NCBI GenBank assembly: GCA_902566945.1
Contig: CACFKZ010000005.1
Coordinates: 1 to 64,000 of the forward strand
Reading direction: 5' to 3'
Length of the DNA: 64,000 nucleotides
Source of the DNA: an uncultured Pelagibacteraceae bacterium
GTDB taxonomy: Bacteria; Pseudomonadota; Alphaproteobacteria; Pelagibacterales; Pelagibacteraceae
Part shown: positions 6,636 to 7,121 of the stretch, in pieces
Numbering within the stretch: position 1 is the stretch's first letter
How the letters are laid out: every line of letters begins with the position of its first letter
Notes under the pieces: model-generated
What the model saw: only the letters and a program-made list of their open reading frames with translations
Told to the model about the DNA's origin: nothing
Database searches by the model: none
Program-made: the position numbers and the translations under genes

Positions 6636-6652
6636 TTTATAATAATTCTAAA
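6636..6652. promoter_or_regulatory. Candidate Irr/PerR-type operator upstream of katG
   Basis: TTTATAATAATTCTAAA, near-perfect 8-1-8 inverted repeat; same motif in front of irr. Confidence 0.6.
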
Positions 6653-6674
6653 GTAAATAAAAAGCGACAAACTG

Positions 6675-7094
6675 TCAATTTTTTAAGTTTATAAATACCT
6701 CTACATTTTTAATTTTTTTACCATTAGGAGCTTTAGGAATTTTTTGAATTAAAATTTCATTAGCATCGATGTCAATTAATTCACTATTTTCACTATCATA
6801 AAAATGATGATGATCTGAAACATTTGTGTCAAAGTAAGTTTTTTTTCCTCTTACTTCAACTTCGCTTAAATGTCCTGCATCTTTAAATGCATGAACTGTA
6901 TTGTAAATTGTAGCCAAAGCAAATTTAGATGTAGTTTTTTTTTCTAAAAGTTTATCTAAGCTTTCAACTGTAAAATGAAATGTTTTTTCTCTTTCAAATA
7001 AATATTTAGCTATTTCCACTCTTTGTTTTGTTGGTCTTAATCCTGATGATCTTAATTTATTAAAAATATCTATTTTTTTCACGTTTTTACTCAT
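6675..7094 (-). CDS. irr: Fur-superfamily regulator, Irr-like
   Basis: Fur fold GLRPTKQRVEIAKYLF; Irr-type DHHHFYDSENSELIDID; adjacent to fabA as in many alphaproteobacteria. Confidence 0.8.
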   Translation of the reverse strand: MSKNVKKIDIFNKLRSSGLRPTKQRVEIAKYLFEREKTFHFTVESLDKLLEKKTTSKFALATIYNTVHAFKDAGHLSEVEVRGKKTYFDTNVSDHHHFYDSENSELIDIDANEILIQKIPKAPNGKKIKNVEVFINLKN

Positions 7095-7104
7095 TTTTTC
7101 TTAG

Positions 7105-7121
7105 TTTATAATCATTCTAAA
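7105..7121. promoter_or_regulatory. Candidate Irr/PerR-type operator upstream of irr (between irr and fabA)
   Basis: TTTATAATCATTCTAAA, identical to the katG site except for the central base. Confidence 0.6.

Follow-up and report, generated by a model that had tools for sequence, protein, structure and literature searches.

The question raised by this locus is whether two nearly identical palindromes, one before the catalase-peroxidase gene katG and one before the Fur-family gene irr, form a common operator, and which protein and which signal would act on it. Operator 1 (6636..6652, minus strand) reads TTTAGAATTATTATAAA in the katG sense and TTTATAATAATTCTAAA in forward-strand letters, and operator 2 (7105..7121, minus strand) reads TTTAGAATGATTATAAA in the irr sense and TTTATAATCATTCTAAA in forward-strand letters. 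The central base is their sole difference, and TTTAGAATNATTATAAA is the shared reading of both in the katG/irr sense. The arms of each form an 8-1-8 inverted repeat with a single mismatch (T vs G at arm position 5). Operator 1 stands 8 nt before the katG ATG (6627), while operator 2 stands 10 nt before the irr ATG (7094) and 52 nt before the ATG (7174) of the divergent fabA. The original prediction, made from this DNA alone, had placed both 17-mers, their central difference, the imperfect repeat and the two short gaps correctly to the base. We interpret operator 1 as a putative degenerate Irr box (ICE) and operator 2 as a putative autoregulatory Irr box.

In the window (the whole 64,000-nt stretch of Pelagibacteraceae DNA analyzed), operators 1 and 2 are the only matches to the motif with at most one mismatch; 0.11 would be expected, and two were reached in 1 of 100 shuffles. 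When three mismatches are allowed, the window count is no higher than chance, so the significance of the pair rests on the near-exact match and on conservation. The whole-genome scan that had been proposed as a check returned the same two sites as the only exact matches in the 864-kb assembly, with two further sites at one mismatch; at two or three mismatches, the motif is no commoner than its control, and such loose scans therefore carry no information. Across 61 genomes (this one and its relatives), TTTAGAAYNRTTATAAA has 61 exact matches vs 9 for a reversed-pattern control, with the pattern thresholds, like the 1e-30 cut for irr used below, chosen after hits had been inspected. Fifty of the 61 lie at irr or at the gene behind it. 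Of the remainder, 3 precede a peroxiredoxin gene, 1 precedes a TRAP transporter gene, and 7 fall inside a coding sequence or at its end; the motif is thus not frequent at unrelated loci. In four genomes, sites overlapping an alanine-dehydrogenase-like gene at its end were discounted as coding sequence.

Conservation upstream of orthologs was another check proposed. The 17-mers are nearly invariant across 66 aligned SAR11 sequences (operator 2 positions 2-8, 11, 12, 15 and 16 in 66/66), whereas the stretch from operator to start codon is variable. Column identity averages 0.977 for operator 2 and 0.959 for operator 1 vs 0.885 and 0.924 for the other columns, a contrast that is moderate, partly since the promoter columns are conserved too. 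Among 80 loci of other SAR11 genomes, a site, defined here as departing from the symmetric Irr box at no more than three positions, precedes katG in 78 of 79 katG loci and irr in 76 of 79 testable loci.

The original prediction had likened one arm to the PerR half-site and the other to the Irr half-site. The Irr-box resemblance stands: against the ICE repeat TTTAGAA-N3-TTCTAAA, the window sites have one arm exact and the other with one mismatch. The hybrid reading is less favored, because the sister family has a symmetric Irr box before the rubrerythrin gene rbr and the PerR-like arm arises by loss of a G:C pair in one arm; a single degenerate Irr box is preferred on these grounds. The symmetric form TTTAGAATNATTCTAAA separates irr from rbr in that family, as it does in many other Alphaproteobacteria. 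A PerR/Irr hybrid with gene-oriented meaning was also considered and rejected: the site orientation is fixed in the window's genus, yet reversed at rbr and at some katG sites, so that we read the asymmetry as degeneration of one arm. As far as sequence comparison goes, the window sites are best read as degenerate Irr boxes (ICE) rather than PerR/Irr hybrids.

The irr gene (6675..7094, minus strand) encodes a Fur-family regulator of 139 aa with an HHH motif and no cysteine, identified by NF045678 IrrA, PF01475 FUR and a Fur fold (AlphaFold/Foldseek). The katG gene (4455..6627, minus strand) was recognized by TIGR00198 on two ORFs, 4696-6627 and 4455-4736; compared to a 99% identical relative, the T run near 4713-4720 is one T longer and splits the gene. 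Relatives carry an intact 723-aa KatG with up to 99% identity to that of the window, and the extra T probably arose by mistake during assembly or amplification, or as a mutation private to this genome. An aspartyl/asparaginyl beta-hydroxylase-like gene (3807-4352, minus strand) follows katG, and a similar gene lies directly behind irr in another genome (L321).

The predicted irr promoter (7127..7154, minus strand; TTGATT-16-TATATT) came from a consensus scan; its columns are conserved and its start point is predicted at the upstream edge of operator 2. The predicted katG promoter (6648..6679, minus strand) combines a -35 TTGACA that overlaps the irr stop codon, a spacer of ~17 nt, and a weak -10 TACTTT that extends into operator 1. 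It was not returned by the promoter scan, having been read from the sequence and the conserved columns, and the scan found promoter-like matches in the region no more numerous than chance. The operators are thus predicted to cover the irr and katG transcription starts, which makes repression their likeliest effect; the overlap with the predicted -10 and start point favors the initiation-blocking position that had been claimed. At Rhodobacter sphaeroides mbfA, the 5' end maps inside the Irr box, which was taken there as a repressor position (PMC3413700).

Profile scores place the encoded regulator with Irr. It reaches 150.6 bits against NF045678 IrrA, marginal at a cut-off of 150, and most SAR11 relatives' Irr score slightly under that cut-off; the Irr models give 150.6 and 134 bits, and the PerR models at most 63. 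Every relative that the Irr search found carries a SAR11 name (Pelagibacteraceae or Ca. Pelagibacter). The regulatory metal ligands of PerR are H37, D85, H91, H93 and D104; their equivalents in Irr (H40, D89, H95, H97 and D108) are invariant in 98/98 SAR11 and 47/47 other Irr, and the HXH/HHH heme motif H95-H97 is invariant in the same 98 SAR11 proteins. Having no cysteine, the window Irr lacks the PerR-type structural Zn(Cys)4 site. It also lacks the Cys-containing heme regulatory motif of Bradyrhizobium type, which does not exclude it from Irr, because other Irr without this motif use a different mechanism (PMC7762939). The AlphaFold model is moderate (pLDDT 75) and Foldseek scores PerR, Fur and Mur alike; since other Irr share the ligands as well, ligands and fold cannot separate heme from peroxide sensing. 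A second Fur-family gene in the window (21803-22135, minus strand) gives a weak IrrA match (E about 2e-13) and is possibly Fur/Mur.

The gene behind irr is not constant. Of 198 Pelagibacteraceae genomes, 140 have katG, 46 have rbr, none has both and 12 have neither (Fisher 3e-34); the genomes are related, so this and the other genome counts, with the p-values derived from them, overstate the independent events. Wherever the position could be checked, the enzyme gene is the immediate downstream neighbor of irr, in the same orientation (katG 68/68, rbr 44/44), and SAR11 genomes without katG have the rubrerythrin gene directly behind irr with an Irr box between. An irr match (E < 1e-30) was found in 162 of 186 genomes with katG or rbr vs 1 of 12 with neither (p 1e-8), with some of the apparently missing irr genes perhaps due to assembly gaps. 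The SAR11 KatGs themselves fall into two lineages with KatGs of other Alphaproteobacteria between them (one-clade hypothesis rejected, AU p 4e-64), and both unrelated lineages occupy the slot behind irr, each behind an Irr box. By parsimony on the Irr tree, which comes from a short alignment and has many weak branches, at least 8 changes of slot occupant are required.

In the sister family, and at over 20 loci from other families of Alphaproteobacteria, rbr and an Fe-S oxidoreductase gene come after irr, and the gap between irr and rbr often holds an Irr box that is symmetric or nearly so. This recurrence makes the irr-box-rbr layout look ancestral. A regulator dedicated to katG was rejected as a description of irr, which is retained where rbr replaces katG. 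Some genomes serve as natural controls. No Irr box was found within 250 bp of katG in 14 SAR11 genomes without detected irr (best site at 3 or more mismatches), in contrast with irr-linked katG, of which all 12 sampled have a box at 0-1 mismatches (p 1e-7); some of the katG genes from no-irr genomes are 86-88% identical to the window type. One genome, L321, has lost the slot enzyme and kept irr with the sites on both sides. Since the two KatG lineages and rbr share slot and box, and the box is missing where no irr was found, these comparisons indicate that regulator and operator move together and that it is the peroxidase that is swapped; the proposed operator common to katG and irr is supported.

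We consider it likely that the window sites are Irr boxes and that the encoded Irr binds both, repressing irr and katG until a signal releases it. Irr, encoded between the two sites, would limit its own synthesis by binding operator 2, and at operator 1 would hold katG down; with the operators over the predicted -10 and start-point regions, an Irr dimer sitting there would keep RNA polymerase out. Inactivation of Irr, by heme and/or peroxide at its conserved His/Asp site, would then release katG and more Irr. The order fabA-irr-box-peroxidase appears to be an old alphaproteobacterial layout; SAR11 has repeatedly exchanged the peroxidase behind the box (rubrerythrin, KatG lineage A/C, KatG lineage B), and a box before irr became regular there.

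Might the 17-mers instead be no more than the -10 boxes of promoters (TATAAT/TATAAA), or a coincidence, given the AT-richness of the genome? One arm does contain TATAAT, on the opposite strand, but conservation is equally strict in the TTTAGAAT arm, no such element occurs at katG of genomes without detected irr, and exact matches run about sevenfold over the control and cluster at irr; this reading, already disfavoured, is very improbable. We give just as little credence to binding by some other regulator with Irr uninvolved. The genome does offer a candidate in the Fur-family protein at 21803-22135; however, the box is absent before katG in genomes without detected irr, though many of these retain a weak Fur-type match (E about 1e-10 to 1e-15), and the symmetric form matches the Irr box found beside irr in other Alphaproteobacteria.

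Returning to Irr as the repressor, its signal could be of either kind. A PerR-like Irr, whose iron-loaded form represses until H2O2 oxidizes a His ligand or iron runs short, freeing katG or rbr, has a fair claim short of an even chance. All five PerR ligand equivalents are invariant, as noted above, although their presence in other alphaproteobacterial Irr makes them non-discriminating; PerR is among the top Foldseek matches, in a moderate model that scores Fur and Mur alike; and the cysteine-free protein has no Zn(Cys)4 site. Slot enzymes of both kinds scavenge peroxide. In the sister family, the motif also precedes an iron-free 1-Cys peroxiredoxin gene in 3/3 genomes with the full gene, which fits a peroxide signal and argues against the classical scheme, in which heme-short apo-Irr represses genes of iron enzymes, heme releases it, and KatG (heme) and rubrerythrin (di-iron) are spared in iron scarcity. 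That scheme, to which we assign the same less-than-even weight, is the established Irr mechanism (PMC7762939); the heme motif is invariant, the main slot enzymes both require iron, and R. sphaeroides Irr binds the mbfA and ccpA promoters (PMC3413700). Iron limitation raises rbr mRNA 1.57-fold in Ca. P. ubique, where the transcripts of irr and fur track stationary phase, not iron (PMC2864753). Provided that its rbr sits behind irr, as we infer from other genomes, the rise disfavours simple apo-Irr repression in low iron and is consistent with the PerR-like alternative. Overall, the peroxide and heme readings are level. A bolder proposal, which we hold to be rather unlikely as a whole, is that SAR11 Irr evolved from a heme sensor into a PerR analogue dedicated to peroxide switching, with a very small regulon and a lineage-traded enzyme slot behind a fixed operator (KatG A/C, KatG B or rubrerythrin; in the sister family, a peroxiredoxin elsewhere in the genome). 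Lineages would then alter their way of handling peroxide by replacing the enzyme alone.

The arrangement can be set beside known systems. Like the Irr box/ICE of Rhizobiales and Rhodobacterales, it pairs irr with a 17-bp inverted repeat (TTTAGAA..TTCTAAA), and transcription is predicted to start at that repeat, as in the case of R. sphaeroides mbfA; unlike those, the SAR11 site keeps one degenerate arm (ATTATAAA), and its putative targets are irr itself and katG. The fabA-irr-peroxidase order with a box before the peroxidase matches the alphaproteobacterial irr-box-rubrerythrin layout, except that the window has katG for rbr and an extra box before irr. With the Bacillus subtilis PerR regulon, it shares one arm matching the half-site TTATAAT, the conserved ligand set, and putative targets in peroxide defence plus the regulator itself, whereas the window regulator groups with Irr profiles, has no Zn(Cys)4 site, and faces an Irr-type other arm. 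Irr loss in R. sphaeroides raises catalase expression and peroxide resistance, but does so indirectly, and katE there shows neither an Irr box nor Irr binding (PMC3413700), unlike katG here, which has a box directly before it.

The fabA gene (7174..7677, plus strand; TIGR01749/NF003509) is divergent from irr, an adjacency widespread in Alphaproteobacteria. Of the suggested tie to fatty-acid synthesis, the spacing of about 50 bp holds (52 nt) and the regulatory link is weak, since most sister-family loci have no site with at most one mismatch between fabA and irr. Operator 2 may, judging by its position, affect fabA in SAR11; a fabA promoter using the operator's TATAAT is possible, and the alignment has no conserved -35. 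Two related alphaproteobacterial genomes have a different palindrome, TTTGTAAYSRTTACAAA, between fabA and irr (L197 at 1422, L198 at 1973).

SAR11 are the commonest bacteria of the ocean, and how they handle H2O2 bears on the idea that abundant plankton depend on other organisms to remove peroxide. Catalase was reported to be lacking in Ca. P. ubique (PMC3033426), and a 2025 study found katG common to most offshore SAR11 genera (PMC12636525). The katG-less SAR11 genomes usually carry rubrerythrin in the same slot with the same operator type, so the difference in katG is mostly exchange, not plain loss. The irr-box-peroxidase module offers a compact, testable regulon. We found no description of the SAR11 operator in the literature searched; Rodionov et al. 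2006, outside that search, may list some of the sites.

Two further loci carry the motif. A site near TTTAAAATWATTCTAAA (G000:C2:76870-76886; L003, L284; L285-L300, L304) lies ~80 bp before a TRAP transporter substrate-binding gene, and is present in 18 of 24 genomes of the window's genus and absent in 6; the TRAP transporter gene is a candidate third Irr target. In the sister family (L143-L145, L277-L279), the motif lies between the 1-Cys peroxiredoxin gene and a divergent metallo-beta-lactamase-fold gene.
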